From Geothrix terrae (GTDB taxonomy: Bacteria > Acidobacteriota > Holophagae > Holophagales > Holophagaceae), in contig NZ_JAKZLA010000002.1 in the NCBI RefSeq assembly GCF_022808775.1, positions 558,001-622,000 of the forward strand: a stretch of DNA of 64,000 nucleotides, given 5' to 3'. Every line of letters starts with the position of its first letter. The stretch's first letter is position 1. The translations under genes and the position numbers were made by a program. The notes below the pieces were generated by a model. It ran no database searches. It saw only the letters and a list, made by a program, of their open reading frames with translations, and had not been told where the DNA came from. Shown here piece by piece: positions 1,965 to 17,825 of this stretch.

Positions 1965-2633
1965 CCAACTCCCCGGCCGGCCCTCCGCGCGGAGCGCCTC
2001 CGCCAGCTCCGCCAGAAACAGGGCGCGGGGCACGACCTGGAAGCCATAGCCCCTCAGGCCTTCGTGGGGCAGCTGGCCGTCGATCATGGCGAAGCCCCAG
2101 GCCTTCAATCGCGCGTCCAGGGCCTGGAGGGCGGCGCGGCTGGCTTCGGGCTCCAGGCTGAACATGCTCTCGCCGAAGAAGGCGCCGCCCAGGGACACAC
2201 CATAGAGGCCGCCCTTCAGCTCGCCGTCCCGCCAGGCCTCCACGCTGTGGGCGTGGCCCGCACGGTGCAATGCGACGTAGGCTTCGCGCATCTCCGGCGT
2301 GATCCAGGTGCCGTCCTGGCCCGGGCGCGGCACGGCGGAGCAGTGCCCGATGACTCGCTCGAAGGCCGCGTCGAAGCGGATCTCGAAGGGGCGGTGGCGC
2401 AGGCTCCGGCGGGTGCGGGCCGACAGGTGCAGGTGGCCGGGGCGCAGCAGGGCTCGCTCGGTTGGTGACCACCAGAGCAGCGGATCGCCCTCGCCGTACC
2501 AGGGGAAGATGCCGCTGCGGTAGGCCAGCAGGAGGCGCGGCACGCTGAGGTCTCCGCCGATGGCCAGCAGCCCATCCTCCGCCAGCTCCGGGTCCGGGAA
2601 GACCAGCGCCTTCGTCAGCCGAAAGACAGGCAC
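1953..2633 (-). CDS. aat: Leucyl/phenylalanyl-tRNA-protein transferase
   Basis: Aat moves Leu or Phe from aminoacyl-tRNA to the N-terminus of proteins beginning with Arg or Lys, creating a degron read by ClpS and destroyed by ClpAP. The 226-residue product has the family hallmarks GIFPWY near residue 40, WWSPTERALLRP, and the EAWRDGELKGGLYGVSLGGAFFGESMFS region (positions about 130-160, given here in pieces: ELKGGLYG, GGAFFGESMFS). The start is a GTG that overlaps the clpA stop by 19 bases, so aat was the last gene of a clpS-clpA-aat operon. The integrated element to its right now separates it from clpS and the clpA promoter, so its expression may depend on a new promoter or on read-through. 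Confidence 0.93.
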   Translation of the reverse strand: MPVFRLTKALVFPDPELAEDGLLAIGGDLSVPRLLLAYRSGIFPWYGEGDPLLWWSPTERALLRPGHLHLSARTRRSLRHRPFEIRFDAAFERVIGHCSAVPRPGQDGTWITPEMREAYVALHRAGHAHSVEAWRDGELKGGLYGVSLGGAFFGESMFSLEPEASRAALQALDARLKAWGFAMIDGQLPHEGLRGYGFQVVPRALFLAELAEALRAEGRPGSWSGA

Positions 2634-3281
2634 GGCCGGCCGTCCTTGAGGTCCACGGTGGCTGTGCCGCCCTTGGCCAGGGGCCCGAAGAGGATGGCCT
2701 CCGCCAGGGGCCGGCGCAGCTCGCGCTCGATGAGCCGCGCCATGGGCCGGGCGCCGAAGGCCGGGTCGTAGCCCTTCTCCGCCAGCCAGGCCCGCGCCGG
2801 GGGCGTGCAGACGAGGCTGACCCCCTTCTCCCTGAGCTGCTCTTCCAGCTCCCGCAGGTGCTTGTCCGCCACCCGCTCCATCTCCCGCCGGCCCAGGGGC
2901 GCGAACTGGAGGATGGCGTCCAGGCGGTTGCGGAACTCGGGGCTGAAGGCCTTCTCGATGGTGCCAGTGGCCGAGCGCCGGCCGCCGGCCTCGGCGAAGC
3001 CCACCTGCCGGGCCGACAGCTCGCGGGCGCCCACGTTGGTGGTCATCACCAGCACCGTGTGGCGGAAGTCCGCGCTGCGGCCGTGGCTGTCCGTGAGCGC
3101 GGCGTGGTCCATCACCTGGAGCAGGATGCCGAAGAGGTCCGGGTGGGCCTTCTCCAGCTCGTCCAGGAGCAGCACAGCGTGGGGCTGCTTCCGCACGGCA
3201 TCCGTCAGCAGGCCGCCCTCCTCGTAGCCCACATAGCCCGGCGGCGCGCCGATGAGCCGCGCCACCGTGTGCTTCTCCTGG
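2615..3281 (-). pseudogene. clpA: ClpA C-terminal remnant, severed by element insertion
   Basis: The frame encodes the last part of the second ClpA AAA+ module from [17 protein letters not shown] to the C-terminal CLSFG. The N-terminal domain, the first AAA+ module and the second Walker A are missing. The second Walker B ([11 protein letters not shown]), sensor and arginine-finger regions are intact, and the sequence shows no frameshift or stop. The break falls exactly where similarity to the intact clpA ends. The frame stays open for about 88 more codons into the element (to 3547), so a chimeric product is possible but has no obvious purpose. It is the original host 3' end, since it is contiguous with complete aat. 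Confidence 0.9.
3269..3281. other. Left attachment-site core (attL)
   Basis: GTGCTTCTCCTGG is shared exactly with 21076-21088 and marks the point where the left clpA copy stops matching. On the coding strand it lies in the codons for QEKHxVAR just after the second Walker A of ClpA. The true crossover could be anywhere within or near this core. Confidence 0.7.
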
Positions 3282-3509
3282 GAATCCGCCAACCCAGGGT
3301 TTTGGGGCCTCTTCGAGTTATTTCCGTGGGTTTGTGACTTCCCGAGCCAGGTGTTGAGGGAGAAGTCCGTGAATTTTCTCCCTCGTCGTTCGATGAAGCC
3401 AAATCCCGCCTGGCGCCTGACGGGAGGCCCTGGCATCAGGGATAGACGCCGGGGGGTCCAGGGGCGAGAGCCAGGGTCCAGGTGGCAGGGGCCTGAGCCT
3501 TTGGCCGCC
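3282..3509. other. Left end of element, no gene
   Basis: These 228 bases lie between the attachment core and the stop codon of the first recombinase gene. By analogy with other elements the recombinase arm-binding sites could lie here, but I cannot define any. The clpA remnant frame runs through it without a stop. Confidence 0.4.
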
Positions 3510-4589
3510 TTAGCTAACATGGCGACCCTCATCCAGTGGCAAGCCATTAACCTTGGAAAGCACCATCAATCCTTCCCGCATGTCTTGTAGGCCCTCTTCC
3601 CAGTAGTACTTGGTGGTCGTGGCAGGATCAGCATGGCGAAGGATACGCTGAACCACAGCAAGGGGAACCCCTCTTCGAAGCAGCGAAGTCGAGAGACTAG
3701 CCCGCAGACGATGGTGAGTCATTGGCACCTCTAGCCCCATGGACTTCGAAGCGGCTTTGACCACGAGATCGGTGTACCTGGTGTTGTGACGCCCCCATCG
3801 TCCCGGGCACATCAGCTCCCCTTTCTTCCGGGGCTGCTTTGCGAACCATTCGGCCATCTCGGGAAGGACCGGCAGGTAGAGGATCTTCCCGTTCTTCTGG
3901 CGTTCGTCGATGCGATAGGTCATCTCATCTTCGTCGTAGTCGTCCCAGTGAAGGCGCTGGGCCTCGGACACTCGAAGGCCAAGATAGAATAGGCTGCGGA
4001 TCATGATCTGGGCGTGAAGGCTTCCGATCCGGTCCACATGAGTGAAGAAGACTTCTACCTGCTCTTCGCTCAGCACCTGCTTGGGGTCTCGGGGAACATC
4101 TATAGTGGGATACTCCAGCGGTGTGTTGTGAAGCCCACGCTTCCGGGCGAGTTCAAGGACACTTCTCAGCCTTGCGAATACCAGCCTCTGGCTCCCAGGC
4201 TTCATCTTCGCTACAAGCCTTGGGAAGAGTTCGTCCAAGTGCATCTGCATATCCTTGAGTGGTGCATCTTGAAAGTGCGACCAGTGGTGCTGGTGATTGC
4301 TACGGAAGAGGCGAACCGTCCTCGCGGCTAGACGCGGAGCTTGAACCTTGAGATACAGGTCGAAGGCCTCCTGGAAGGTGGCCTTTGATGTCGTCCGGAC
4401 ATCGATGGACTCCAAGGCCAGGGCTGAACGCAGCTTCAGCAGGTACGCCTTGGCAGACCTGAGGTCCCGGCAGCCTGTCGAACCAGTCTTCAACTTCCCG
4501 TGATACATGAACCGGAAGTGGTAGATGCCTCGGCGCAGACGAAGTCCATCCTTGAGACCGGAATCCTTCTTCGCCTGGATGGGCATCAT
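3510..4589 (-). CDS. Tyrosine recombinase/integrase 1
   Basis: A 359-residue site-specific recombinase that would cut and rejoin DNA through a tyrosine-phosphate link. The catalytic set is visible: Arg in YLGLRVSEAQRL, the Lys-bearing QKNGK turn, HHRLRAS, the LRHADPATT box and Tyr in TKYYWEEG. The N-terminal part holds an arm-binding-like segment and a SAM-like core-binding domain. It is the gene nearest the left attachment core and points towards it, the usual place for the integrase of the element. It is clearly related to the recombinase at 7114-8160. The start is one of two adjacent ATGs; the second is at 4586. Confidence 0.93.
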   Translation of the reverse strand: MMPIQAKKDSGLKDGLRLRRGIYHFRFMYHGKLKTGSTGCRDLRSAKAYLLKLRSALALESIDVRTTSKATFQEAFDLYLKVQAPRLAARTVRLFRSNHQHHWSHFQDAPLKDMQMHLDELFPRLVAKMKPGSQRLVFARLRSVLELARKRGLHNTPLEYPTIDVPRDPKQVLSEEQVEVFFTHVDRIGSLHAQIMIRSLFYLGLRVSEAQRLHWDDYDEDEMTYRIDERQKNGKILYLPVLPEMAEWFAKQPRKKGELMCPGRWGRHNTRYTDLVVKAASKSMGLEVPMTHHRLRASLSTSLLRRGVPLAVVQRILRHADPATTTKYYWEEGLQDMREGLMVLSKVNGLPLDEGRHVS

Positions 4590-4626
4590 TCACCCCAGGG
4601 CCATGGGGCCGCAAAAGGCGGGTCGA

Positions 4627-4658
4627 GGCCACCCCCCTTTTCCCACAGGGGGGTGGCC
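4627..4658 (-). promoter_or_regulatory. GC-rich hairpin upstream of integrase 1
   Basis: GGCCACCCCCC (4627-4637) and GGGGGGTGGCC (4648-4658) form a perfect 11-bp stem with a 10-base loop. It lies between the stop of the small gene at 4741 and the integrase start at 4589. No T-run follows on either strand, so it may be an attenuator rather than a simple terminator. Confidence 0.5.
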
Positions 4659-4740
4659 CCGGCACCAGTAGCGAGCAGTCGAGTGGTCTGCGCGTGGGCA
4701 GGTCCACCCGGCTTTCCCTACCCTTCATCAGCCATGACCA

Positions 4741-4917
4741 TCATTTCCGGCGGAGAGAGAGAAACCGGCCGCGATCGTCACGAGGCTGAACACCGAGAAG
4801 GTTCGCGATGAAGTCCCGTTCGGCTTCGAGCTGCTTGGCCATCCAACGGTAACCTCGGATTTCACTCTCGAGGGATCGGAGTGCGGTGATGGGGTTGAGT
4901 TTCTTAGGGTGTTTCAT
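4741..4917 (-). CDS. Small basic protein, unknown function
   Basis: A 58-residue protein starting MKHPKKLNPI and ending RGRFLSLRRK. The ATG at 4917 is chosen because it has a near-perfect AAGGAGG ribosome site 6-7 bases upstream; the frame is open further upstream but without such a site. The middle (residues about 10-40) is charged and probably helical. Its size, charge and position directly before an integrase fit a small DNA-binding accessory factor such as an excisionase, but no helix-turn-helix can be claimed. Confidence 0.55.
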   Translation of the reverse strand: MKHPKKLNPITALRSLESEIRGYRWMAKQLEAERDFIANLLGVQPRDDRGRFLSLRRK

Positions 4918-5079
4918 GTCTTTCCTCCTTGGTCCGGACAGCCCGGAACCTGCTGGGTTATTAAGCTGGTCTGAGTGGAATTGCAGTTCTGTCTGAGTGC
5001 AGGCGGACCTCGTACGCATACAGATGCGGCACTCCAGCAGGACGGGTGCCCTGACCTGTCGAAGATCGAAGCCATGGGT

Positions 5080-6297
5080 CTAGGCCGCGCCTTTGAGGCC
5101 GCGTGACCTTGCCATCAACCGATCAGCCGCTTCCGGCCCCTTGGCCATCGCCTCTTCGAGATAGTCCAACTGCCGGATGATCTTGGCTGGCCGGTCCATC
5201 TTTCGCTTACGGCCTGGATAGCTGAAGCGATCTCGGATCTCACGCTCGTACTCTGCCCTTCCGACCTTGGTCGCGAGGTCATTCCACAAGGCGACTGAAG
5301 ACTGGATGGCGATCACAGAGTGAGCACTGAGCGCCGGGTAGGCTCCGGGGGCTCGGTACGCGCCGAAGTTCCCCAGGACGGAGCAGAACTCGCATTGGCA
5401 ATAGTCATTCAGCGCATCGCCATCTGCGACCTCTGGGTCTTTGCGGCCAATCTTCAAGGTCCGCAGGGCACCATGGCTGTTGTACAAGTACGAGGCGAAC
5501 CGCCCTCCCTGCCAGCTGCTGGAATCCGAAGTCAGGTTCGGGAAGTAGCGCCCAAGCCAAGCTGCCACTGGAATTTGAAGTGGGCCGCTGATCCCGAAGA
5601 GATGCACCCGCTGTTCGCGTACGCCAAAGTCTCGGTAGAGGACGGCGGCCCCTCTCAGCATGCAGTGGGGGTCGATATTCGAGTCCTCGGAGATCGCCCA
5701 GCCTTGAAAGGCGGCAGGAGCATTGACGTACTCGATCCAAGAACGCCACTGATCGCCTGTAACGCCGTGGGCTACATTGATCAGCTCCAAGCCCTCTCGC
5801 CTCTTGGCCAGAAAGATGCCGTTGTGCCCTTTCTGGATCTTCGCCAGGATGCGGAAGACCTCTGAGGTAGTGTCCACATCCCTACGAGGTGGGTAATCAA
5901 GGGCCATCCCAGCGTCAGCGCAGGCGTTGTAGACCTCGATGACTTTGTGAGGATCCACATAATCGGAAGCGCCTGACTTGATCTGCCACCCGCCAGAGTC
6001 GCAAAGCATCTTCACCCCAGCATCGGCGGCAAATCTCCCCTCCCCGGCGTTCAGGTGATGCGCACTCGCCATCCACCATTCGCAATGCTTCCCGAGGATG
6101 GTGTCGCGGTGGAAGTAAGGGCCGATGCGCCTAAGGGTGTATCCCTCCTTCAGGCGGGCGGCCTGAACGATTGGATCGTGGATGAGTGATCCAGCGTCCA
6201 GCCGGTATTCGATCCTTCGGCCCCTCCCTTCCCGAATCCACAAGTGCCATTGCAGGAACGCAGGTGTCGCCCCAGAGGGGATCCAGGTGTAGCCCAT
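5080..6297 (-). CDS. TGT/DpdA-superfamily base-exchange enzyme
   Basis: A 405-residue protein with the layout of the tRNA-guanine transglycosylase superfamily, whose members swap guanine for a 7-deazaguanine in tRNA or, for DpdA, in DNA. Visible blocks are CDSGGWQ (D100), ALDYPPRRD (D134), NVAHGVTGDQW (H177-G178), GWAISED, VHLFGISG and LTSDSSSW (D258). A CQCEFC cluster (C300, C302, C305) corresponds to the zinc site. D100 and D258 sit where the TGT catalytic aspartates are expected. The SDSSSW block resembles the DSTSW block I associate with DpdA rather than the DCVxPTR of bacterial Tgt. ATG 6297 is preferred over TTG 6303 because AAGGG lies 9 bases upstream. No other dpd or queuosine gene is in the element. 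Whether it acts on DNA or tRNA is inference. Confidence 0.65.
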   Translation of the reverse strand: MGYTWIPSGATPAFLQWHLWIREGRGRRIEYRLDAGSLIHDPIVQAARLKEGYTLRRIGPYFHRDTILGKHCEWWMASAHHLNAGEGRFAADAGVKMLCDSGGWQIKSGASDYVDPHKVIEVYNACADAGMALDYPPRRDVDTTSEVFRILAKIQKGHNGIFLAKRREGLELINVAHGVTGDQWRSWIEYVNAPAAFQGWAISEDSNIDPHCMLRGAAVLYRDFGVREQRVHLFGISGPLQIPVAAWLGRYFPNLTSDSSSWQGGRFASYLYNSHGALRTLKIGRKDPEVADGDALNDYCQCEFCSVLGNFGAYRAPGAYPALSAHSVIAIQSSVALWNDLATKVGRAEYEREIRDRFSYPGRKRKMDRPAKIIRQLDYLEEAMAKGPEAADRLMARSRGLKGAA

Positions 6298-6303
6298 CTT
6301 CAA

Positions 6304-6495
6304 GCCCTTTCAGCGGGCGGGGTGATCCCGCGCTGGGCTTGCTAACCTTTGGGCACCTGAATTCAGAGTCTATGAACATCTAAAATAAATATTTATTTAT
6401 ATTTATGCCAAATATGGCTAGGCTGTTCGTGCCACCTATCATGGCGGGTAGCCTCGCGCCTCCTGTCCCTATCACTGACGGAGTTCGATGAAGCC
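6304..6495. promoter_or_regulatory. AT-rich divergent promoter region with 16-bp palindrome
   Basis: This stretch separates the divergent TGT-like and zinc-ribbon genes. It contains a perfect palindrome AAATAAATATTTATTT at 6383-6398 in a locally very AT-rich block, quite unlike its surroundings. It probably holds both promoters and may bind a regulator. Confidence 0.45.
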
Positions 6496-7119
6496 ATGCT
6501 CTTGAGCCTCAAGCAGTTCGAGCGCCGGTTTCCCAACGACTTGGCCTGTCAGGCCTACCTAGAGAGGCTGCGATGGCCCCAAGGGGTAGGTTGTCCAAGG
6601 CCACAGTGCTACCCAACGGAGCCTCCATGGCGCCCATCTCGTGGTCGGCGACTGATATGCCGGAAGTGCCGCGCCCAGTTCTCGCCCACCTCGGGAACCC
6701 TTCTTGATGGCCTCCACACCCCCTTGAAGGTCGTGTTCCTATCGGCCTGGTGGCTCACGGTCGGCATCCACCTATCGACTATCGAGCTACAACAGCGTCT
6801 TGGCCTTCCTCACTACCGGGTCGCTCAATCTCTTCGCTTACGCTGGCGCCTTGCGATGCTCGAAGACCTTGGGATAGACCTTAGCGAATTCGAACTCGCC
6901 GGGAGGATCGGAACCCCGGGTGGGATCGAGCAGAGGTTCCGCGATATCCACCAAGAGGTTCTCCCAGGCGTTCAGACCTATTCGACTGGCAGCAAGGAAG
7001 CCTTCGATCTCCTTCTTAGGTGTTCCCTTCGGCTCAAGCCAATCAAGGAGATAGACCTACGGAGATTCTTCCGAGGCGAGGTAGCCATCCATCGCGAGGG
7101 AGAGCCAAACAGTTTATGA
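6496..7119 (+). CDS. Zinc-ribbon protein, IS1595-type transposase N-terminus without DDE domain
   Basis: The N-terminal 70 residues match the pattern of the zinc-ribbon domain of IS1595-family transposases: FERRFPNDLACQAYLERLRW, then CPRPQCY and CRKCRAQF as metal-binding pairs, then SPTSGTLLDG. A normal transposase continues with a DDE catalytic domain of 150-200 residues; here the remaining 130 residues show no DDE signature. It is therefore either a decayed transposase or a reused DNA-binding protein. The frame is intact. Its 3' end overlaps the convergent second recombinase by 6 bases. No terminal inverted repeats were found around it. Confidence 0.55.
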   Translation: MLLSLKQFERRFPNDLACQAYLERLRWPQGVGCPRPQCYPTEPPWRPSRGRRLICRKCRAQFSPTSGTLLDGLHTPLKVVFLSAWWLTVGIHLSTIELQQRLGLPHYRVAQSLRLRWRLAMLEDLGIDLSEFELAGRIGTPGGIEQRFRDIHQEVLPGVQTYSTGSKEAFDLLLRCSLRLKPIKEIDLRRFFRGEVAIHREGEPNSL

Positions 7120-8160
7120 GAGATTCGCCAGCGCACTACGCATGTCCTGAATATCTGTCTCGATGTACCAGGCCACGCAGGTTTCAACGCTCGCATGGCG
7201 AAGCAGCTTCCGGATCAACTCCAGCGGCACTCCCTTCTTGACCAGAACCGTGGCCAGTGTTGCTCGAAGGCGGTGATGGCAAAAGGTACTGGGGAGTCCC
7301 ATCTCTGCGACCGCTCGCTTGAAAGGACGAGTGGTGTACTTCGAACCATGTGGCTCGTCCCGTTTGTCCCGGGGACACATGTAGACACCCAAACGTGGAA
7401 GGCGAGCAAACCAATCAGCCATCTCCTCCATTACTGGAAGCACTGAGACCTCTCCGCTTTTCTGCTGATCGATGGTGTAGGTCTGGTGCTTATCGTCATA
7501 GCAGGACCACCGAAGTCGATAGGCTTCCTGCTCCCGAAGACCAAGGTAGTACATCGTTCTCACCATCACGCTCTGGTGCAGGTTTGCGAACTGGTCCAGA
7601 TGAGAGAAGAACACTTTCACTTGTTCCTCTGTCAGCACCAGTTTCGGTGTGTGGGGGACCTTGATCTTTGGGAGATCGAATTCGATGCGGTGAAGCCCCC
7701 GCTCACCCGAGAATTTCAGGATGGCGCTGATCCGGTTGAAGTGCGCGGCCATCGTGGACTGCGCGTATTTGGTCCGGCATTTGTTGTAATGGGCATCGAG
7801 GACAGGTTGAAGATCTTCTAGATGCAGATCGCGCCACTGATGCCATGTTTGCCGCCAGTGGCTTTCCATCATCTGGACGGACTTCCAGGACACACGAGGT
7901 CCCATGACCTTTAGCCAGAAGTAGTAGGCGTCCCCAAATGTCGGCGCGGGTTTGGCTTGAGATCCTTGATCCCGTCGTTCCGACATCAACCTGATACGAA
8001 TTTCACCAAGGCGCTGCGTTGCACCCATGAAATCACTAAGCCCGGTACTGCCTTGGTGGATCCTCCCCTCGCGCATAAATCGATATCGATAGATCCCATC
8101 CCGATCAAGGCGCAACCCGCCCACCAGCGGAGTTGTGTTTGATGATGTCTCTCCCGCCAT
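7114..8160 (-). CDS. Tyrosine recombinase/integrase 2
   Basis: A 348-residue site-specific recombinase with Arg in YYLGLREQEAYRL, HHRLRATLATVL, the LLRHASVET box and Tyr in VAWYIETD. It is collinear with the recombinase at 3510-4589, sharing EEQVxVFFxHxD, LPVxxEMAxWFA and DMR near the C-terminus, so the two are paralogues. The upstream flanks are also alike: both have a C-run followed by TTTTCCCA and then GGCACC before the start codon. Paired recombinases can act together or mark two merged elements; the sequence does not decide. Confidence 0.92.
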   Translation of the reverse strand: MAGETSSNTTPLVGGLRLDRDGIYRYRFMREGRIHQGSTGLSDFMGATQRLGEIRIRLMSERRDQGSQAKPAPTFGDAYYFWLKVMGPRVSWKSVQMMESHWRQTWHQWRDLHLEDLQPVLDAHYNKCRTKYAQSTMAAHFNRISAILKFSGERGLHRIEFDLPKIKVPHTPKLVLTEEQVKVFFSHLDQFANLHQSVMVRTMYYLGLREQEAYRLRWSCYDDKHQTYTIDQQKSGEVSVLPVMEEMADWFARLPRLGVYMCPRDKRDEPHGSKYTTRPFKRAVAEMGLPSTFCHHRLRATLATVLVKKGVPLELIRKLLRHASVETCVAWYIETDIQDMRSALANLS

Positions 8161-8285
8161 CCCAGCACCCCAGGCTTCAAGGGCTCTGCCCCGCCCCCTT
8201 TTCCCATCAGGAGCCTGAGGCTGGCACCGTGTATTCGCACCCTGCGGAATCCAAAAATCAGGGAATCAACCCAGGTTGATCGCGG

Positions 8286-8852
8286 CTACTCGGTGGCTTT
8301 GGCGAGAGCGCTCAGGATGTCTCGATAGATGCTTTCCTGAAGCACCTCGCGGTCCTCAGCTGGGCCATCTCCTTCGAGGTCCTCCATGAATCCTCGGACG
8401 CAGGTGCTGGCTGCGCCTTCGAGTGCCGACCTGATGCCTGCTTCGGCCATCACATCAGGAAAAGCGACCCGATATCCGTGAACAGCGCGGTCCAGGGCTT
8501 TCGTCGAGGCGGTCCTGGCGCCACGCAATCCCCTAGCCTTCCCTGGGTCATCTCCCGCCATCGCATGGAAGGCACAGATGCCAGCCTGAGCTTCCACAAG
8601 GATCTGCCATGCCCTGGCTTCTCCGAGCAGTTTCTCTTCGTCCTGATCCCCGAAGATGTCCCGCATGGCCTTGAGGCGGTCAGAAAGCCCAAGGCGCTGG
8701 GCTCGCTCCTCAGACGGGGCACCGGCCTGGACCGCATGGTTGAGTTGCCGTTCATCTCCTAATGCTCGGTAGAGCCGGATGAGGAATCGAGAGGCCACGA
8801 CTGACCGTGCAGTCCAATCGTCAACGATATGGGCAAGAGCATTCGAGGTCAT
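8286..8852 (-). CDS. Unknown protein coupled to ArsR-type regulator
   Basis: A 188-residue, mostly alpha-helical, acidic soluble protein; I recognise no family. It begins in a four-base ATGA overlap with the stop of the ArsR-family gene upstream, so the two are translated together. There is no signal peptide and no metal-binding Cys/His pattern. Cotranscription implies it is controlled by, or works with, the regulator. Confidence 0.7.
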   Translation of the reverse strand: MTSNALAHIVDDWTARSVVASRFLIRLYRALGDERQLNHAVQAGAPSEERAQRLGLSDRLKAMRDIFGDQDEEKLLGEARAWQILVEAQAGICAFHAMAGDDPGKARGLRGARTASTKALDRAVHGYRVAFPDVMAEAGIRSALEGAASTCVRGFMEDLEGDGPAEDREVLQESIYRDILSALAKATE

Positions 8853-9184
8853 AGGTTGCTAGCTGTTTGGGGGACTTGGGCTTTTCGTGGTGCGTTCAGG
8901 ATGGCCGGAAGGAGGCCTGGAAAGCGCATTTCCAGGTCCTCTCGACGAAGTGAGACGAACCGTTTGGTCCCCTGTATCCGGGTCATTATTGCGCCGGCCT
9001 CTCGAAGCGCCTTGAGGTGGTGAGTAAGGGTGCTATTGGAGATTGGGAGCCCGAAGGAACCGCAACTTCGCTCTCCCAGGTGATCTAACTGTTTCACGAT
9101 GGCTAGTCGAGTGGGATCGCCGAGGGCTGCGAGGAGTGTACTTAGGGCAATTCGGTCCTGGTTTGGGTGATTGGGATATTTCAT
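8849..9184 (-). CDS. ArsR-family winged-helix repressor
   Basis: A 111-residue winged-helix protein: LLAALGDPTRLAIVKQL starts the domain and SNSTLTHHLKALREAGAI is the recognition helix region, followed by the wing TRIQGTKRFVSLRREDL. ArsR-family proteins usually repress their own operon and release DNA on binding a metal or other signal. The Cys in GERSCGSFG is not enough to predict a metal. The likely operator is in the AT-rich region just upstream. It is the first gene of a two-gene operon with the unknown gene. Confidence 0.85.
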   Translation of the reverse strand: MKYPNHPNQDRIALSTLLAALGDPTRLAIVKQLDHLGERSCGSFGLPISNSTLTHHLKALREAGAIMTRIQGTKRFVSLRREDLEMRFPGLLPAILNAPRKAQVPQTASNL

Positions 9185-9267
9185 CGTATTGATACCATCA
9201 TATTTATGAGTAATAATTTATTATAATATGCAAATTTATATATTAGTTTTGAATTTTTAAAAATCTA
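9185..9267 (-). promoter_or_regulatory. AT-rich promoter/operator region of the arsR operon
   Basis: These 83 bases are almost all A and T and lie between the arsR start and the stop of the next gene upstream. A TTGCAT on the minus strand (9223-9228 region) could be a -35 element, but the low complexity makes any exact call unsafe. Confidence 0.35.
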
Positions 9268-10401
9268 TTAGCATGGATATTCCTGTCCCCACTTGCGCTC
9301 GAACCATTCCCAAATTGACTTCATTTGCCCACACCTATCCCCCAGATCACTCCCCGGCAGGGCCATAAACCAATCCTTTAAACCTTTGTAATCTTTACCC
9401 TTGCGATAGAAATAGGGGATCACCTCCAGGAGGGTGTGATGCCAGGTGCCATCCTCGACAAAGTCCGGCAACTCGAGGTCATTCTTCCCGAAGGTGGCCA
9501 CAAGGCCTGCACATACAAGTTCTAGCTCACCCTTGACTCGGTATAGCTTGCTCCTCTGGCCGATGAAGTAGGTCGCATCGACCACCTCAAGGAGGCCGAT
9601 GTTCTTCAAAGCGGAGAGGGCCAGGCTCACGTTCTTCTGCGGAAACTTGGCTCCCAGGCTCGCCTCCGCGCTCGCGATCACGGCCATTTGAGCGATCCCA
9701 ATGCTTTCCATGGCCCGCTTGGGGCTGCTACAAACCCAGCGGACCAGGAACCACATGACCTCCTTGATGGCGGGACTGCGGATTGTCGAGCGCCGGAAGG
9801 CTTCCTGGATAGCCTCAATGGCTGGTTTGGGGAGTTCGTACACCGTCCAGGCCTTCTTCGCCTCATTGGCCGCCACTTCCGGTTGAGAGGGAGAGACCGG
9901 CTCCAGGTCCTCGAAAACCCGCCCCCTTGCGAAGAGGGAGTACATGGGCTCGTCCATGAAGCAGTACTGGCAAGCGGCAGGCTCAGAATCGAACTCCCAC
10001 CCGGTCCCCTCTAAGAGGCCGTGCAGTGTGGCGTGAGCGACCTTGACATTCATCTGTAAGCCAACAGGCATCCTCACCTTGAAGAAGACCTTCGCGTAAC
10101 CACTAAGCGACGGAACAACGAAGCCAACACCTTTGAATCGATCCCGAAGGTGCTCCCGAAATTCCTCCCAGGATTGAAATGAGGCGGGGAGATGTTTGTC
10201 ATCGAAGTCCGCGATGACGATTGGGTCTCGAGTACTCCAGAAGTCGAATCGAGGACGATATTTCTTGACTGTTTTCTTTGTCAGTTGTTTTATAAAACTA
10301 TCGTTATATAAACTGCGATACCTGCCCTTGGTTTGCTCTGGGATCATGTATAAGATAGGCGATCCATCTACAATAATGGCATGTTCTGTGGTTGCATTCA
10401 T
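9268..10401 (-). CDS. Possible replication/primase-like protein
   Basis: A 377-residue protein I cannot firmly assign. Residues about 60-115 contain IVIADFDDKHLP followed by SLSGYAKVFFKVRMP, an arrangement reminiscent of the N-terminal domain of VirE/primase-polymerase-type proteins (acidic DxD-like pair, then SxSGxxK). The C-terminal half looks like winged-helix or helical DNA-binding segments (AIKEVMWFLVRWV, FPQKNVSLALSALKNIGLLEV). Repeats of ACTATTATCCC lie 110-220 bases upstream of its start, as iterons lie upstream of rep genes. A 10-bp inverted repeat abuts the start codon. Together these make a replication-related role plausible, but it is inference. Confidence 0.4.
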   Translation of the reverse strand: MNATTEHAIIVDGSPILYMIPEQTKGRYRSLYNDSFIKQLTKKTVKKYRPRFDFWSTRDPIVIADFDDKHLPASFQSWEEFREHLRDRFKGVGFVVPSLSGYAKVFFKVRMPVGLQMNVKVAHATLHGLLEGTGWEFDSEPAACQYCFMDEPMYSLFARGRVFEDLEPVSPSQPEVAANEAKKAWTVYELPKPAIEAIQEAFRRSTIRSPAIKEVMWFLVRWVCSSPKRAMESIGIAQMAVIASAEASLGAKFPQKNVSLALSALKNIGLLEVVDATYFIGQRSKLYRVKGELELVCAGLVATFGKNDLELPDFVEDGTWHHTLLEVIPYFYRKGKDYKGLKDWFMALPGSDLGDRCGQMKSIWEWFERKWGQEYPC

Positions 10402-10432
10402 TTCTCATATCTCCGTCAATGGGATATGAGAA
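10402..10432 (-). promoter_or_regulatory. Inverted repeat abutting start of the replication-like gene
   Basis: TTCTCATATC (10402-10411) and GATATGAGAA (10423-10432) are perfect 10-bp inverted repeats around an 11-base spacer. On the minus strand the GGAG ribosome site lies at the edge of the spacer and the start codon follows immediately. It could be an autorepression operator or an mRNA hairpin hiding the ribosome site. Confidence 0.6.
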
Positions 10433-10513
10433 TTTTCATTTCATATTATTAGATCATTGAAATTTACCCCGTAGATTCGATTCCAAGTTCCGGTTTCCTA
10501 TCCATTTTGAAAT

Positions 10514-10620
10514 GGGATAATAGTCCTTGCCACTCACTACAGCCACATAGTGGAACAATATGGAGAACTATGATCCCGTTGTAGGGGGCAAATACTATTA
10601 TCCCAAAAGACTATTATCCC
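10514..10620. repeat. Iteron-like repeats of ACTATTATCCC
   Basis: The 11-mer ACTATTATCCC occurs at 10594-10604 and 10610-10620 (both followed by AAA), in inverted orientation at 10514-10524, and with one mismatch (ACTATGATCCC) at 10567-10577. Four copies within 107 bases cannot be chance. The location upstream of a possible replication gene and in a non-coding stretch suggests a protein-binding array such as an origin or operator. Confidence 0.7.
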
Positions 10621-11067
10621 AAATACAGGTGCCAATTTATCAACTTCAGGTCGATCTATGGCCTCTATACCTTGCTTCGACCATTTCACCAAGGGACTAC
10701 GGATAACCGGTAGATACATGATGATCACAGGCCTATAACACCTTCTCCAGCATGACCTCTGCGTTAATCGATCTAATTATCATTTGTAGTCCTCATGACC
10801 TTGGCTACTCGTCGAGGCCCATCGAGGGCCTTACCCTTCCATCCCCCAGGTCAAGCGCCCTTCCGCGCTGTCTTGAGCGGGTTGTGCGCAGACAAACGGG
10901 ATTCCCAGACCAAGAGGCTTCCGGACGTCCTGAATGAGTCGATCGGGCGACTGAACCCCAGGACCAAAGTAAACTACCGGACGACCCAAATTGATGGGGC
11001 CGAGGAACCCTTGGGCTGACGATCGGACGACATACCGGCGAATCACGAGGATCTACCGGTTTCCCCC
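10621..11067. other. Non-coding stretch, no recognisable gene
   Basis: Between the repeats and the LytTR promoter I see only short frames on both strands with no ribosome sites or family likeness. The part at 10800-11040 is GC-richer and could be a decayed gene fragment, but no parent can be named. Confidence 0.4.
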
Positions 11068-11095
11068 TTGTCTTATGATAGTAGGACGCTATATT
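11068..11095 (+). promoter_or_regulatory. Probable sigma-70 promoter of the LytTR gene
   Basis: TTGTCT (11068-11073) and TATATT (11090-11095) are separated by 16 bases and lie about 30 bases before the start codon, which has a GAGGGG ribosome site. The elements are close to the -35 and -10 consensus. Confidence 0.5.
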
Positions 11096-11123
11096 CCAAA
11101 ATCGCCTTGAGGGGGGTTACTTA

Positions 11124-11876
11124 ATGAGCAATTTAGCACTAACAGTATTAATTGTAGATGACGAGGAGCTTGGCCGAGCCATTGTAAAAGAATGCATCAG
11201 TCGTAGAAATGAAAGCATCTCGATAATCGAATGTGATAATGGATTTGAGGCTATTAAATTAATATCTCAAAATAAATTTGACGCTGTATTTTTAGACGTA
11301 CAAATGCCCAGGTTATCCGGATTAGAAGTCGCAGATGCAGTTGCTGGCGAGGTTCCAATTATTTTCGTTACAGCATTTGATACATATGCTGTGAGAGCCT
11401 TCGAATTAAGCGCTGTAGATTATGTGCTCAAACCGTTTACTTTTGATCGATTGAATGCGGCGCTCGATCGAGCCATATCAATCAAATTGAACCCAAAGAC
11501 CGCAACTATTAATTATTCCGAGTTGCGAAAAAATGCAGAAAACAAAGAATATTTAACAAAAATAATCATAAGGGACCGCGATCATATTTATAAAATTCCA
11601 GTTGAGGATATTATTTACATCCAAGCTCAGGATTCATACATTTTAATTAAAACAAAAATCAAAGAATTTCTCAAGCTTCAACGAATTTCCGAAATCGAAA
11701 AATTACTTAATCCAGCCCAATTTATTCGAATTCACAGGTCCTATATTATACCAGTAGGCCGTTTAGTAAGCATGAAGAAAAATGAATCAGAGAGTTGGAA
11801 AGCAGTTTTAAACAGCGGAGATATTATTCCAATAAGCAAGACTCGCTATAAAGCTCTTTTGGGATATTTGGAGTGA
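11124..11876 (+). CDS. LytTR-family response regulator
   Basis: A 250-residue two-domain regulator. The receiver (residues 1-120) has the acidic pair in VDDEE, the phospho-acceptor Asp in AVFLDVQMP, the Thr/Ser-type switch in IFVTAFDTYA and Lys in VLKPF. A LytTR DNA-binding domain follows (residues about 150-250), with IIYIQAQDSY, FIRIHRSYII and IPISKTRYKAL. No histidine kinase gene is beside it, so it is an orphan. The gene is strongly AT-rich and full of Ile, Lys and Asn codons ending in A or T, unlike the chromosome on either side, which marks it as acquired from a low-GC source. Confidence 0.9.
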   Translation: MSNLALTVLIVDDEELGRAIVKECISRRNESISIIECDNGFEAIKLISQNKFDAVFLDVQMPRLSGLEVADAVAGEVPIIFVTAFDTYAVRAFELSAVDYVLKPFTFDRLNAALDRAISIKLNPKTATINYSELRKNAENKEYLTKIIIRDRDHIYKIPVEDIIYIQAQDSYILIKTKIKEFLKLQRISEIEKLLNPAQFIRIHRSYIIPVGRLVSMKKNESESWKAVLNSGDIIPISKTRYKALLGYLE

Positions 11877-12149
11877 TATACCCCAAGCACATTTTATCGG
11901 ATAGGAGCTTTAGTCCTAGAGGTGCCACCGGCTTTTACGCTGGGTAAGAGTTCGCCACCAGGTAGATTCTCTGTTGGATTCCCCTGGGCCAAGGGGATAA
12001 TGGACCCTGGATTGCTTGAGTGGCGCATCCGGGAGGACCCTTCATCCAAACCCAATCCCATCCGGCAGAGAACCACATTCTGTAACAAATCACCTATTGC
12101 CAACTTTTATCAATTAACCAGTGAACTCAACCCTATTGCTGGGAAATGC
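11877..12149. other. Gap between LytTR and methyltransferase genes
   Basis: No convincing gene here. The methyltransferase frame is open back to 11922, but the extra 76 residues lack conserved features and a ribosome site, so this part is treated as leader. Confidence 0.4.
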
Positions 12150-13406
12150 ATGAAAAAAACGCCCTCGCTTCCCGACATCAAGCCCCAAAGCAAAGTGGCG
12201 AAGTTAAACAGAGAGCTTTATCTAGACAATAATCACACATTCCCCATCGGAGAAGTTTCTCTAGCTGTAGGTATGGCCCCAACTTTTATCCGTAAGGTAG
12301 TTGGAAATAAAAACAAACTTAATATAACAGACGTTTTAGAACTACTTGAGCAAGATACATATGGTGAGACCTTTGTCCCACGAAGCATGGTTATTGACTA
12401 CTTGCTTAGCCGACCTAAAAAACATGATCTGGAGGCTATTCCAACTGCCGGCTTAAACCACATCCTTCTTCATGGACATGCACTAGATAGATTGGCGCAA
12501 ATCCCCAAAAAGAGTATTAACTGTGTGGTTACCTCAACACCCTACTGGGGATTACGAATATATAAGGAACCCTTTTTCGCGAAATGGGCCGACGGCGACT
12601 ACGCTCCATATGGACACGAACAAACTCCAGAAGGATTCCTCCGGCACACAACAGAAGTCCTAGCAGGTCTATTTGATGTCCTGGCCGATGACGGCTCAAT
12701 CTGGTGGAACGTGATGGATTCCTTTAATACGCGAACTCAGATTCGCGGGAATGCTGTTGAGGCGCTTAGAGCAATGCAGGGAAAGGACAAGAAGGCCTGG
12801 GGAGATCATGAGTGCCGACGCTATAGCGCAGGGCATACGTATCTCAAAGATGGTGAGCAGTGCTTGATTCCAGCTCGTATAGCCGAACGCGCTGCACGCA
12901 TTGGTTTTTATGTTAAGGCCGTCATCACCTGGGCAAAGACAAGCACACTTCCCGAACCACAAGAATCGCGTGTAAGCAAAAATCTGGAGTATGTTTTGCA
13001 CCTAGCAAAAATTCGAACGCCGTTTTTTAACAAAGATGTTTATCGAACCCTTCCGGCAATGCTTGGCGGAAGAAACAACGGCTGGGAAACCGATAAGCTT
13101 TCTGATGTCTGGACGCTACCAACCTCTAGCGGGCGGGATGGTCACGGTGCCCAATTCCCAATCGCTCTCCCAGCCAGATGCATCGCGTTATCGACAGAGC
13201 CTAACGGGGTCGTGCTTGACCCATTCGTCGGGGCCGGGAACTCAGGCGTGGCTGCACGAGCTCTTGGTAGGAAGTTTATTGGCATAGATGTCTGCAAAGA
13301 ATACCTAATTACCGCAGAAAAAAATATTTCAAATGCAGTCCCCACCGATATGAACCTAATCGCTAAGCAAACCTTTCAACAACCGTCCCTAGATATTCCT
13401 CAGTAA
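12150..13406 (+). CDS. Beta-class DNA amino-methyltransferase (probably N4-cytosine)
   Basis: A 418-residue S-adenosylmethionine-dependent DNA methyltransferase. Catalytic motif IV is TSTPYWGLR (residues 128-136), before SAM-binding motif I LDPFVGAGNSGVAA (about 356-369), the order of the beta class. A TSxPYWG form is common among N4-cytosine enzymes, though N6-adenine cannot be ruled out. Residues 25-75 look like a small helix-turn-helix that could help target choice. ATG 12150 is chosen over an earlier in-frame start at 11922. The 3' end overlaps the convergent mcrC-like gene by 44 bases, so it probably protects host DNA from that nuclease or modifies its target. Confidence 0.85.
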   Translation: MKKTPSLPDIKPQSKVAKLNRELYLDNNHTFPIGEVSLAVGMAPTFIRKVVGNKNKLNITDVLELLEQDTYGETFVPRSMVIDYLLSRPKKHDLEAIPTAGLNHILLHGHALDRLAQIPKKSINCVVTSTPYWGLRIYKEPFFAKWADGDYAPYGHEQTPEGFLRHTTEVLAGLFDVLADDGSIWWNVMDSFNTRTQIRGNAVEALRAMQGKDKKAWGDHECRRYSAGHTYLKDGEQCLIPARIAERAARIGFYVKAVITWAKTSTLPEPQESRVSKNLEYVLHLAKIRTPFFNKDVYRTLPAMLGGRNNGWETDKLSDVWTLPTSSGRDGHGAQFPIALPARCIALSTEPNGVVLDPFVGAGNSGVAARALGRKFIGIDVCKEYLITAEKNISNAVPTDMNLIAKQTFQQPSLDIPQ

Positions 13407-14559
13407 CGGAAAGATTGCTCATCGGAAGAAATACGGTTGTAACGAGAATACCCTGTGGAGTTATGTACTCCCGAGAAACGACAGATCCTCCCGTGTAAAG
13501 GGGAGCCAGAATAAGTCCACGCTTTAAGTTGTTTGAGGTCAAATAAGCATGCATTTGATAGTGATCATCGATCGTTGGTTCTTTGTATTTTGCATCTGCG
13601 ATTAATAATGGCACGCCATTTCTGTAAACAACAATATCGGGATCCAACTCGAAACTTCCATTTGTATAAAGTGTTGTTTTCCCGAGCCCACCTTTAACAA
13701 CAATATATCCATCTCTGATATATCTATCACTAATAATATTACGAAGATACTTCTCAAAGACAGTGGCAGTTTGCATTAAAATTGCGTCCCCTTGAAGCGT
13801 CGCAACATCTCCATAACCCAATCCATTATTTCCAAGAACAACCTTAGATAGCATCAGCGCTTTTCTATAATAATCGCGCGGTCCACCGTACAGCTCTGAA
13901 GCAAATCCCCGCTCAATATACTCCAAATCTGAGCGTATAGATTGACTCCTGTTGAATCGTTTCAGCCATTTTTCATATACCCCGCTCAGGGAACCTAGGT
14001 CCGCCTGTTTAAGCAATGGTAAAGCACGTATTACTGCTTCTGTGATTATTCGATTTTCGGGAATATCGGAGGTTTTTTCACTAACCGTGTACACAATAGG
14101 GTCACGACTATGGCAAGAAATATTCAAGGCCGTTTCAACGACATCCAATTGGCCAATAGCAAAGGTTCCACTCTTTTTAACCCTAACCCTTCCCTGCTTT
14201 GGGCTTCGCTTTAATATTTCTGAAATTGATAATATTAATTGTCTAGCAACAATTGAGTCTATATTTTCTTCATTTTCAACAGAATATGAAACAAAACTTT
14301 CATACTCGCGCTCCAAGTCGGGCTGAATTCCTTCCGATTTAAAAAGCAACCTCAAAAAATTAACTTTACTGATCTTTGGAATAATATGAAGAGTGTCTCC
14401 GTTCCGTAGGGGGAGTGCCCCAACAAGCCCCTGGACCTCGACTCCCATTCCTCTGTGTCCAATATGCAGAGAGATCCCCTTGGGCAGCGGCTCGGGCATA
14501 TCGAGCGGTCCAAGCCCAGAAAACCAAGTAATTTCTCCCTCTTTTGCCACCTTAATCAT
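13363..14559 (-). CDS. mcrC: McrC-like nuclease subunit
   Basis: A 398-residue protein of the McrC/LlaJI type, the nuclease partner of an McrB NTPase. The PD-(D/E)XK active site is visible as ELDPDIVVYRNG followed by LLIADAKYKEPT (D308, D322, K324). The N-terminal half is the domain that contacts McrB. It starts in an ATGA overlap with the mcrB stop, so the subunits are made together. In characterised systems McrBC cuts DNA bearing modified cytosines; in LlaJI-type systems relatives act as ordinary restriction enzymes with their own methylases. The neighbouring methyltransferase favours the latter reading. Confidence 0.85.
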   Translation of the reverse strand: MIKVAKEGEITWFSGLGPLDMPEPLPKGISLHIGHRGMGVEVQGLVGALPLRNGDTLHIIPKISKVNFLRLLFKSEGIQPDLEREYESFVSYSVENEENIDSIVARQLILSISEILKRSPKQGRVRVKKSGTFAIGQLDVVETALNISCHSRDPIVYTVSEKTSDIPENRIITEAVIRALPLLKQADLGSLSGVYEKWLKRFNRSQSIRSDLEYIERGFASELYGGPRDYYRKALMLSKVVLGNNGLGYGDVATLQGDAILMQTATVFEKYLRNIISDRYIRDGYIVVKGGLGKTTLYTNGSFELDPDIVVYRNGVPLLIADAKYKEPTIDDHYQMHAYLTSNNLKRGLILAPLYTGGSVVSREYITPQGILVTTVFLPMSNLSVTEEYLGTVVERFA

Positions 14560-16088
14560 ACAGATGTCGCAAACATCTCATCGATCAGGTTATCAATCTT
14601 TTCTACTTCCTGGTGTTTAAGATCTCCCAAGAAATTGACAAGAACCGGGCGAATTCTCGCCTTATAATAGTGGATGATTTCCATGTTTTCTGGATTTTTC
14701 GATAGTGCCGCAAAATAACCATGCCCCAAAGGATAGATGGTCAAAATTTCTGCAAAGACCTGTGAAAGCTTGCTACGAATCGCCTCTGGCATTCCCTTCT
14801 CAGTGAGCATGCCTACGAGGTCCTCTGGCCGAGGCGGGAATTCCACGGCAGCAATCCGGCCTAAAAGAGCATCATCAATGTCCTCTGTGGACTTATCAAT
14901 TGTATTCATTGTCAACAAAAACAATGTTTCCTTGGGTATCGAAAATTTCTTCCCGCTTCTAAGCACGATCCCATTGGCTTCACCACGGTAATTATCCTCG
15001 ATTAAAGAAAATACCTCTCCTAAGGCTTGAGAGATTGCTGTGCGATTAATTTCTTCTAAAACAATTGTCGATTTTCCGGATTCGATAGCTATTTTTAGTG
15101 GACCATCAGTCCAAGCCCAATTCCCATCTGCATCAGGCTTAAATCCTTCGACAAGATGATCATATCCCCAGCCATCATGAATTTGTATGGTACAACGAGA
15201 CTCATCAGCTCTCGGAATAATTGAATCAATTAATCGAGTTTTACCTGTTCTCGGGGGACCATAAAGCAGTATGGATTTTGCATCTAGGCTTATGAGAGCG
15301 CGCACATCCTGCTCAGGTGCAGATCGCATCCAAGCTGGCATATTTAATCCTGAAACCATGCTATTCACCCTCCTATTGTAGTGACTGAAGTCTTCACTAA
15401 AGACTTTTACAGTTGGCTTTTCTGAACCATCTATAAAAGGAGCACAAATCTTGTACAACTGATCATCAGTTCGTGGGGCAGATTGTGTGTCAATTACGAT
15501 ATCATCATCAACAAAAACAACTTCTTTCTCTACCGGAGAAATGCCCAGCTCTCTAATCATGTCTTCCACAAGGAAGATGGCCGGATCCTGGCCGACTGGA
15601 ATTGGTGTCTGCCGCCCAAACCACACCGCAAAAGAAATGATTGGAATCGACACCCGTGATTCGTTGTTTAAGGCGAAACCCGACTCTCCAATGCCAAGCC
15701 CCAAGGGGTAGTGACGACCAGGGGCAACAAGAAGTCCCTCCTCCTCAGCACTTGAGATATCAAGAAACCCTGTCGGATCACAAGTCACCACGGAACCACT
15801 AGATGCCCACCGTTGAATCGTTGACTGAATGATTGACCTTGACGCATCATGTTTCATAGTTAAATAGCGCGGGGTGTGTGCGAATGGAATGAAAAATCGC
15901 CCGTCAGCAGCCCCACAAGAAAATAGCCGCTTCAACGATTCAGTTGAATTTGATGTATCGACCCTAATCGAGGGTGCGGAAAAGGCCATGCCCATATGCT
16001 TCAGGGTGAACCAAATCTTCAGCAGGTGCCCCGCAGTCCCATGCAGTCTTCCGAGAGCCGACTCGAGAGTAGTGTCAGACACATACAT
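14556..16088 (-). CDS. mcrB: McrB-like AAA+ NTPase subunit
   Basis: A 510-residue protein whose C-terminal half is an McrB-type AAA+ motor: Walker A GPPRTGKT (277-284), Walker B VLEEINR (343-349) and the McrB-typical MNTIDKS block near 393, then LLGRIAAVEF. McrB uses GTP to move DNA towards the cleavage subunit. The N-terminal ~240 residues differ from E. coli McrB and would determine which DNA is recognised; I do not recognise the fold. The ATG at 16088 follows a GAGG ribosome site. The gene is AT-richer than the flanking chromosome. Confidence 0.85.
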   Translation of the reverse strand: MYVSDTTLESALGRLHGTAGHLLKIWFTLKHMGMAFSAPSIRVDTSNSTESLKRLFSCGAADGRFFIPFAHTPRYLTMKHDASRSIIQSTIQRWASSGSVVTCDPTGFLDISSAEEEGLLVAPGRHYPLGLGIGESGFALNNESRVSIPIISFAVWFGRQTPIPVGQDPAIFLVEDMIRELGISPVEKEVVFVDDDIVIDTQSAPRTDDQLYKICAPFIDGSEKPTVKVFSEDFSHYNRRVNSMVSGLNMPAWMRSAPEQDVRALISLDAKSILLYGPPRTGKTRLIDSIIPRADESRCTIQIHDGWGYDHLVEGFKPDADGNWAWTDGPLKIAIESGKSTIVLEEINRTAISQALGEVFSLIEDNYRGEANGIVLRSGKKFSIPKETLFLLTMNTIDKSTEDIDDALLGRIAAVEFPPRPEDLVGMLTEKGMPEAIRSKLSQVFAEILTIYPLGHGYFAALSKNPENMEIIHYYKARIRPVLVNFLGDLKHQEVEKIDNLIDEMFATSV

Positions 16089-16514
16089 TTCAACCTCGCC
16101 ATCAAGTCTCGAATCGCCACCAGCTTTCTACACTTTCGACAAGAAACGAACTGATTCTACACGAATTAGACTCGAACCTCTCATTCCGTGGTGCCGTGCT
16201 ATGGCAATCTCCTGACCTTTTCTACACCAAGAATGATGACATGGTTGGATTCGAAAGATTTTGTTTAGGCGCCGGAAGGTCTTCTCCTACACCGCGGCTG
16301 AGGGCAACTGATAGCCGGTACCTGCATTTAGCTCCAGTAATGAAGCACTTGGCAAGACCGATCCCTGAAGGTTCCAGTGTGAGCTTCGTGTCTGCTGCGG
16401 CTCTGGGGCTCCCAGACGATGAGTAACCCCTCCCACCTGTAGGGGTCTCTGGCGGTAACGATCCGCCGTGACTCTGCGGCGGCCCCCTGGGGATATTGGT
16501 CCCATGGAGGGCCC
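16089..16514. other. Intergenic stretch upstream of mcrBC, no clear gene
   Basis: This gap probably holds the mcrBC promoter at its left side. A small hairpin GGCGG-N7-CCGCC lies at 16451-16467. Short frames on both strands show no family likeness. Confidence 0.4.
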
Positions 16515-16901
16515 ATGCCCCAGCATCCGGGCCTATGGCTCACCCAGATCCGATTGAATTCGTCTCAAACCCTACTATCGGAATCGGATCTGCTTTGCCT
16601 ACCAGGGCTAACAAGCTCGTCAAGGAATCCGAGGCGCCTTGAGGAACAGGTGGTTCACCTCCACCTCTTCGCAGGGGCCTACTCCTTCTGGGCCGCAGCG
16701 GCAGACTATCAGTCGGGTGACTTCATCGGGTTCTCCAGAGACCACGCCTCGGATCCCGGAGGGCGATGGGGTGTCGTGCCCTACATGCGCTTGTTAGATA
16801 TACGGGTGTCCATCAAGATCGATGGCGCGATGGCCCTAATACCCCTGGAGCGTGACCGGCACTTCCAATCCATGTCGCTTTGGAAGGCGCTGGAGTTGTA
16901 G
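16515..16901 (+). CDS. DUF2958-like protein
   Basis: A frame of 128 residues whose C-terminal 85 residues recall the DUF2958 family found on plasmids and integrative elements: FWAAAADYQSGDFIGFSRD, then WGVVPYMRLLDI, ending in IPLERDRHFQSMSLWKAL, where the family usually has an ERDxxFxPxPL block. Function of that family is not known. The N-terminal 35 residues show no likeness, and the start may be further in. Confidence 0.5.
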   Translation: MPQHPGLWLTQIRLNSSQTLLSESDLLCLPGLTSSSRNPRRLEEQVVHLHLFAGAYSFWAAAADYQSGDFIGFSRDHASDPGGRWGVVPYMRLLDIRVSIKIDGAMALIPLERDRHFQSMSLWKALEL

Positions 16902-16930
16902 CGACAGACCAACCACCCTTGGTTCTGACC

Positions 16931-17218
16931 TCAACCAATCGCGTCATTCCCGGCCTTCACCCGTTCATACCCAGTCAATCCGCCCAGCTGATGATGTCGG
17001 CAATAGGCCTGGAAGCCCTGGGACACTTCCTTGTCCCGCATGAGCACCTTGAATGCTCGAAGGAGGAGATCGCTTCGTGGGCTATCCAGAACCAGGTAGG
17101 AGTAGCTCAATTCCACATATGGCGTGAAGTTTCCTTGCTTGGCCTGCTCCATAGCTCGTTCCTCCCACGGGCGGAGCGGTTGCTCAGCGTGAGGCCTTCT
17201 ACCTGGGCGAGACCACAT
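16931..17218 (-). CDS. Small unknown protein downstream of repeat protein
   Basis: A 95-residue frame that overlaps the 3' end of the gene at 17199 by 20 bases, as an operon partner would. A second in-frame ATG at 17152 gives a 73-residue product starting MEQAKQGNFTPYVEL. The opposite strand also has an open frame here, so coding is likely but not secure. I recognise no family. Confidence 0.4.
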   Translation of the reverse strand: MWSRPGRRPHAEQPLRPWEERAMEQAKQGNFTPYVELSYSYLVLDSPRSDLLLRAFKVLMRDKEVSQGFQAYCRHHQLGGLTGYERVKAGNDAIG

Positions 17219-17825
17219 TAAGGACCCCTTGTACAGCGGTGGCGCGAAATGATGGGCACCCGTGGGCTACAAGTCGGCCTCGGATCTGGGAATTCAATCC
17301 GAGGCCAACCAATTTCGGGCAGTCGATGACCAGGACATCTCCGAGGTAATGGGTTTCCAGGCCGTCTGGGAGTTGTCGTAGGGACCCGCACCGCTCGACG
17401 CGGATGTGGCCAAACACCGAGGTGAGCCCCCTTCCGAGGTCCAGGAGCCTGGGACAGTCAGAGATCCGAGAATCTCCGCGAAGGACAAGGTACGGAGGAA
17501 TGCGGCGAATCTCGGAGTCATCTTGGATGAGCAGCCTTCCTGCTGGGCCGATCCAACGGGTGAACTGAGCCCACTGATCAACTCTTTGAAGAAACCTCAG
17601 GGCCAGTCTTCGATCCTGGAACTGGAGCGCTATGGATAGAGGGTGGATGTCGAATCTCGTGAGGAGGTTCTGGATGCTGTCCCGTGAAAGGTTTCGGGGT
17701 AGTAAATGAGCGAGAAGAGCCACTCGGTAGGGGACATGGGGTTCCTCCCGGAGGATGACCGCGAGGGCTTCCAGGGGTGTCGAGCCCTTCCGGAGAAGAT
17801 GGCGGTACAGACGGTCCTCGTTCAT
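17199..17825 (-). CDS. Protein with leucine-rich/beta-helical repeats
   Basis: A protein of about 208 residues starting MNEDRLYRHLLRK. The N-terminal half is helical; the C-terminal half has repeats of the type L-x-V-x-G-x-L-x-I-x-x-C-P-x-L-x-x-L, for instance ISDCPRLLDLG, VERCGSLRQLPDGL and VIDCPKLVGLGL, spaced about 22-25 residues apart. Such repeats form a solenoid used for binding. The frame is open back to a TTG at 17948, but that part is only Pro/Ala/Gly-rich. No signal peptide is present, so it should act in the cytoplasm. Confidence 0.6.
   Translation of the reverse strand: MNEDRLYRHLLRKGSTPLEALAVILREEPHVPYRVALLAHLLPRNLSRDSIQNLLTRFDIHPLSIALQFQDRRLALRFLQRVDQWAQFTRWIGPAGRLLIQDDSEIRRIPPYLVLRGDSRISDCPRLLDLGRGLTSVFGHIRVERCGSLRQLPDGLETHYLGDVLVIDCPKLVGLGLNSQIRGRLVAHGCPSFRATAVQGVLNVVSPR

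Follow-up and report, generated by a model that had tools for sequence, protein, structure and literature searches.

The protein encoded at positions 5080–6297 (reverse strand) of the window, i.e., the whole 64,000-nucleotide stretch of Geothrix terrae DNA analyzed here, is a guanine transglycosylase with the (beta/alpha)8 fold of the TGT superfamily, as judged from its predicted structure, and sequence comparison places it in a deep, isolated lineage of that superfamily. Enzymes of the TGT superfamily exchange guanine for 7-deazaguanines; Geothrix is a bacterium of soil and sediment. The gene lies in an integrative element of the chromosome, is under purifying selection, and may serve to mark DNA with preQ0 supplied by the host.

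Gene, conserved residues, and predicted fold

The gene and the codons of its key residues are:
5080–6297, reverse strand: gene of the TGT-fold guanine transglycosylase (DpdA-like); ATG start at 6297, in-frame TTG at 6303
5998–6000, reverse strand: codon of D102 (DSGGWQ), the base-recognition/acid–base Asp of TGTs; invariant in alignments A2 and A3; aligned with D95 of archaeosine TGT
5524–5526, reverse strand: codon of D260 (SDSSSW), nucleophile position of TGTs; invariant in alignments A2 and A3; aligned with D249 of archaeosine TGT
5320–5400, reverse strand: zinc site C302, C304, C307 (CQCEFC) and H328; invariant in alignment A2; aligned with CSCPVC...LHN of 1iq8

Read from the ATG, the frame encodes approximately 405 residues; the alternative in-frame TTG yields a frame two codons longer (5080–6303, reverse strand; 407 aa), and residues are numbered here from this TTG. 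The ATG is preceded by an AAAGGG ribosome-binding site, both being kept in the sister species (genome G065). No significant match to the protein is seen among the Pfam, NCBIfam, PADLOC, or PHROGs models; in particular, the Pfam TGT model PF01702 and the curated bacterial DpdA model NF041059 yield nothing up to E 1, and a single-sequence search of the PDB gives no match. Hence, it is the relatives and the structure that supply the family name.

The preliminary description, made from the sequence, had pointed to TGT-fold blocks, two aspartates in the catalytic places, and a CxCxxC zinc site, and all of these are confirmed. The blocks DSGGWQ, LDYPP, SDSSSW, and CQCEFC are present; D102 and D260 correspond, in register, to the two catalytic Asp residues of the superfamily (DSGG.Q and the nucleophile DS..); and the CxCxxC...H zinc site is found as well. 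In the profile alignment to 1iq8, D136 of the LDYPP block is aligned with the Asp of LDIP in archaeosine TGT, while the counterparts of the zinc set are the CSCPVC motif starting at C279, and H307. D102, D136, D260, C302, C304, C307, and H328 are all invariant in the alignment of 10 relatives; among more distant relatives from viruses the three Asp residues are retained, but the Cys set is lost in several.

The AlphaFold model, built with eleven sequences, is of moderate quality (pTM 0.73, mean pLDDT 67), with low values in residues 12–71 and around the zinc site. It folds as a TGT and matches solved TGTs at Z about 23 over some 300 residues: the top solved match is human QTRT1 (Z 23.5, 312 residues, 3.5 A; Foldseek E about 1e-9), archaeosine TGT scores Z 23.2 over 298 residues, and bacterial Tgt scores Z about 21. 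Among viral structure models the best matches are phage proteins, that of Motura included, then DpdA2 of Vibrio phage nt-1 (E 1.4e-8). The solved DNA-guanine transglycosylase 7ui4 matches the family profile at E 0.18 and falls outside the 50 best structure matches, kinship still being possible at this level.

The element in clpA and its copy in a sister species

The element, with its borders, contains:
2575–3281, reverse strand: cut-off clpA 3' end beside host aat, left end of the insertion; 707-bp repeat of 20382–21088
3510–4589, reverse strand: tyrosine recombinase (integrase 1); PF00589, E 1.6e-23; 98% identical in the sister species
4741–4917, reverse strand: 58-aa ORF between the TGT-like gene and integrase 1; no family match; kept in the sister species
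6496–7119, forward strand: ORF with an IS1595-type zinc ribbon (PF12760)
7114–8160, reverse strand: second tyrosine recombinase; PF00589, E 8.4e-20
8286–10401, reverse strand: conserved backbone, consisting of a 188-aa ORF, an ArsR-type regulator (8849–9184), and a 377-aa ORF (9268–10401)
10906–16486, no strand assigned: swappable cargo, i.e., LytTR response regulator, DNA methyltransferase, McrC, and McrB; the sister species' copy of the element lacks it
16487–20201, no strand assigned: rest of the element, with ORFs 16515–16901 (forward), 17199–17948, 17967–18638, and 18894–20201 (all reverse); no clear families
20382–21088, reverse strand: right end of the element, with the clpA 3' end that makes the gene whole; repeat of 2575–3281

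The direct repeat of the clpA 3' end (88.9% identical over 707 bp) delimits an element of about 17.8 kb (3282–21088) of the tyrosine-integrase type, inserted in clpA. The clpA–aat junction is uninterrupted, i.e., an empty site, in all 14 congeners checked, and is split, at clpA codon 526, only here and in one sister species (G065). The element uses clpA codon ~526 as its attachment site and restores clpA with its own 3' end. Searches with Aat put the host within Geothrix or beside it, in the Acidobacteriota. The preliminary description of a lone gene in a mobile element is upheld, no partner genes being seen; in agreement with it, the main element ORFs scanned include neither dpdB–dpdK nor preQ0 genes. 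A bacterial dpd system is ruled out, given the missing NF041059 match of the protein and the missing dpd partner genes among the element ORFs.

Two further features of the element may be mentioned. Between the 58-aa ORF and integrase 1, a strong GC hairpin (GGCCACCCCCC...GGGGGGTGGCC) is located at 4620–4660, with no T run. The conserved ORFs 17967–18638 and 18894–20201 have stretches that resemble each other (LLLV..K.GK, RALRLA/ANRVL...PNAE), which suggests a duplicated domain.

In the sister species this element is present too, and its copy of the TGT-like gene is intact (95% identity). Both the element and its flanks show about 82–95% identity in the comparison of the two species, which agrees with one old insertion; the two copies therefore represent a single acquisition. 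Positions 1971–10905 and most of 16487–20127 can be aligned between the species (82–91%), and the TGT-like gene lies within this fixed part; in place of the 5.6-kb block 10906–16486, G065 has a Schlafen/AlbA-type gene, and additional insertions there include genes for a Cap4 nuclease and a DUF3732-like ATPase. Hence, the methyltransferase and McrBC are ruled out as fixed partners of the TGT-like gene, and the suggested tie between them is not supported. The cargo of the G065 element (L065/L009; contig 1, 85001–120000) comprises Schlafen/AlbA_2, a Cap4-nuclease-type protein, a DUF3732-like ATPase, and a histone-deacetylase-like protein.

Comparison of the two copies of the TGT-like gene gives dN 0.027, dS 0.180, and dN/dS 0.15 (407 codons), close to the value for clpA (0.17); 13 of 20 amino-acid differences fall in residues 1–86, and none in residues 87–187. 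The gene is under purifying selection.

Relatives, preQ0 supply, and the likely acceptor

The gene is found in two of 396 genomes of the phylum (Acidobacteriota), both of the same genus. A plasmid search for relatives gives no match. One degenerate motif pattern, run against the species collection, returned 131 stretches and no relatives; this is a single motif, and near genomes may be absent from the collection. Viral contigs yield nothing with the single protein and 54 distant relatives with the profile. By tblastn, 18 phage records are retrieved (E 2e-18 to about 5e-11), all from large phages of about 195–258 kb, some of them annotated as TGT or tRNA guanine transglycosylase. The best relatives are jumbo-phage proteins of Vibrio GR11A/GR7B, Xanthomonas PhiXhv-12, Achromobacter Motura, NCTB, and Pseudomonas Voja-6.

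A phage-only profile, constructed from six distinct jumbo-phage proteins with the TGT-like protein left out, scores the latter at 117 bits, nt-1 DpdA2 at 21.8, host Tgt at 3.0, and 9g DpdA at -0.5; shuffled TGT-like sequences reach at most 1.1 bits (n = 500), so that the relatedness to the phage proteins is not due to chance. In Motura, the TGT-like gene has QueD/QueC genes on one side and QueE/GTP cyclohydrolase genes on the other, and QueC scores above the cut-off in all six jumbo-phage genomes checked. The phages of loci L003, L004, and L008 have two or more QueC-like genes close together, one of which is perhaps altered for a further preQ0-modifying step. Directly 3' of the TGT-like gene, often overlapping it, five of six jumbo phages encode a small CxC...CxH protein, SWIM-like by eye (L003:7169–7645, L004:7193–7657, L005:7296–7700, L007:7208–7819, L008:7253–7705; also L012:9180–9587). 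Against Pfam, it matches no family over the cut-off. It is a possible partner of the phage enzymes; among eight other ORFs of the element it is not found.

In the trees, the TGT-like protein and its sister copy form a very long isolated branch (stem of 2.25–3.5 changes per column). The best reduced tree joins them with the jumbo-phage proteins at weak support (79/82), while a tree forcing a clade with tRNA TGTs is 2 log units worse and is not rejected (p 0.163). The sequence leans weakly toward the jumbo-phage group; the trees fix neither a placement inside the phage clades nor the choice between DNA and tRNA as acceptor. Further DpdA subfamilies, DpdA3 and DpdA4, have reportedly been named; the DpdA groups compared here are NF041059, 9g DpdA, and nt-1 DpdA2, and the jumbo-phage group may be DpdA3 or DpdA4.

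In the host genome, QueC and QueF are neighbors on contig 8; there are also two genes of the PTPS/QueD type and a single ordinary Tgt, and no full NF041059 match. One QueD/PTPS-type gene is located in the window at 54553–54888 (reverse strand; 127.6 bits), 48 kb from the TGT-like gene and far outside the element. Since QueC, QueF, and QueD-like genes are present, the host probably makes preQ0, as its gene content suggests, in line with the earlier proposal that it could supply this base. The ordinary host Tgt is a separate gene, hence the TGT-like gene is not the host Tgt. Phages with a lone DpdA and queuosine-making hosts are known, and phage DpdA and dPreQ0 shield DNA from restriction enzymes (PMC6884629).

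The proposed role, for which we see the case as evenly balanced, is that of a base-exchanging enzyme with which the element marks its own DNA with host preQ0 and becomes less sensitive to restriction. D260 would attack the glycosidic bond of guanosine; a covalent enzyme–nucleic acid intermediate would form and guanine would leave; its place would be taken by a 7-deazaguanine bound by D102 and D136, probably preQ0 from the host, the zinc site being presumably structural. DNA would be the likeliest acceptor, and the DNA of the element, perhaps also that of the host, would carry dPreQ0 and show lower restriction-enzyme sensitivity on transfer or after integration. Against DNA marking speak the depth of the lineage, the weak join with the phage proteins, the missing small partner and preQ0 genes in the element, the failure of NF041059, and the moderate model.

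The main rival reading, which we consider doubtful, is a tRNA-directed transglycosylase, i.e., a second TGT that modifies tRNA of the host (or of an invader), e.g., away from the anticodon wobble position. The best solved match of the family profile is indeed the archaeosine tRNA TGT 1iq8 (E 1.4e-12), with the full zinc motif; the structural matches to tRNA TGTs reach Z about 23; and, as noted, the trees allow a grouping with them. However, one ordinary Tgt is already encoded by the host; at 407 vs. 582 aa, the protein is without the C-terminal domains of archaeosine TGT, the match ending at 355; the Pfam TGT model is not matched; and the nearest sequence relatives occur in phages with 7-deazaguanine genes. 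The constancy of the transglycosylase beside defence genes that vary by species (in this genome McrBC and a methyltransferase; in the sister a Cap4 nuclease, a DUF3732-type ATPase, and a Schlafen/AlbA-type protein) would also fit a role in defence, the enzyme acting on invading DNA or RNA by base removal or exchange, e.g., by converting protective phage 7-deazaguanines to guanine and so enabling restriction. We regard this as improbable: the protein retains every standard catalytic residue of ordinary exchange, and no enzyme with the TGT fold is known to us to perform such base removal or back-exchange, a lack of precedent that counts against it. Just as improbable, if not slightly more so, is the reading that the gene is a phage remnant without a current function for the element. 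This would agree with the occurrence of the gene in no more than two sister species, which fits a single old acquisition, and with the missing partner and preQ0 genes, but not with the intact frame, the conserved start and ribosome-binding site, a dN/dS like that of conserved host genes, and changes that fall mostly outside the catalytic core.

Comparison with known transglycosylase systems

Phages and multi-gene dpd islands are known to mark DNA with 7-deazaguanines. The element is neither: it is a chromosomal integrative element, and its backbone may keep a DNA guanine transglycosylase that stands alone, belongs to a new deep lineage, and uses host preQ0 against restriction while defence cargo is exchanged around it. 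This combined reading we offer tentatively, as possible and short of probable. If it is true, non-viral mobile elements also use base exchange, fed by host preQ0; moreover, a new deep branch of the superfamily could help to show what sets the choice between DNA and tRNA.

Compared with bacterial Tgt (queuosine), the fold is alike, while the Pfam TGT model leaves the protein unmatched. Archaeosine TGT (1iq8) shares the catalytic domain, both Asp residues, LDxP, and the zinc site; the match covers residues 12–355 of 577, and the TGT-like protein ends at the end of the catalytic domain, so that the C-terminal domains (tRNA-binding, including PUA) are missing, and identity in the structural alignment is about 16%. 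The DpdA of bacterial dpd restriction clusters belongs to the same superfamily, while here there is no NF041059 match and no dpd partner genes are found. For phage 9g DpdA, the likeness is that of the superfamily and of the local DSSSW block (CDSSSW in 9g); there is no significant profile match (-0.5 bits; hhalign probability 6%), and 9g DpdA has no zinc motif. The initial view that SDSSSW brings the protein nearer to DpdA than to Tgt therefore stands for this block, but not overall, as archaeosine TGT and DpdA2 are both closer matches to the family profile than 9g DpdA is; membership in the named DpdA families was not borne out, with no match to NF041059 and essentially none to 9g DpdA.

Similarity to nt-1 DpdA2 is seen both in profiles (hhalign probability 95% with the family profile) and in structure (E 1.4e-8); the nt-1 protein, however, is without CxCxxC and sits in a preQ0 gene cluster. 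The DNA of Vibrio phage nt-1 contains dPreQ0 (PMC6884629). The jumbo-phage TGT-like proteins are 19–25% identical to the protein and longer at the C-terminus, and their genomes have QueC and mostly the small CxC/CxH neighbor 3' of the gene, the element being without both; with the TGT-like protein they share the three Asp residues and the complete zinc CxCxxC...H set.
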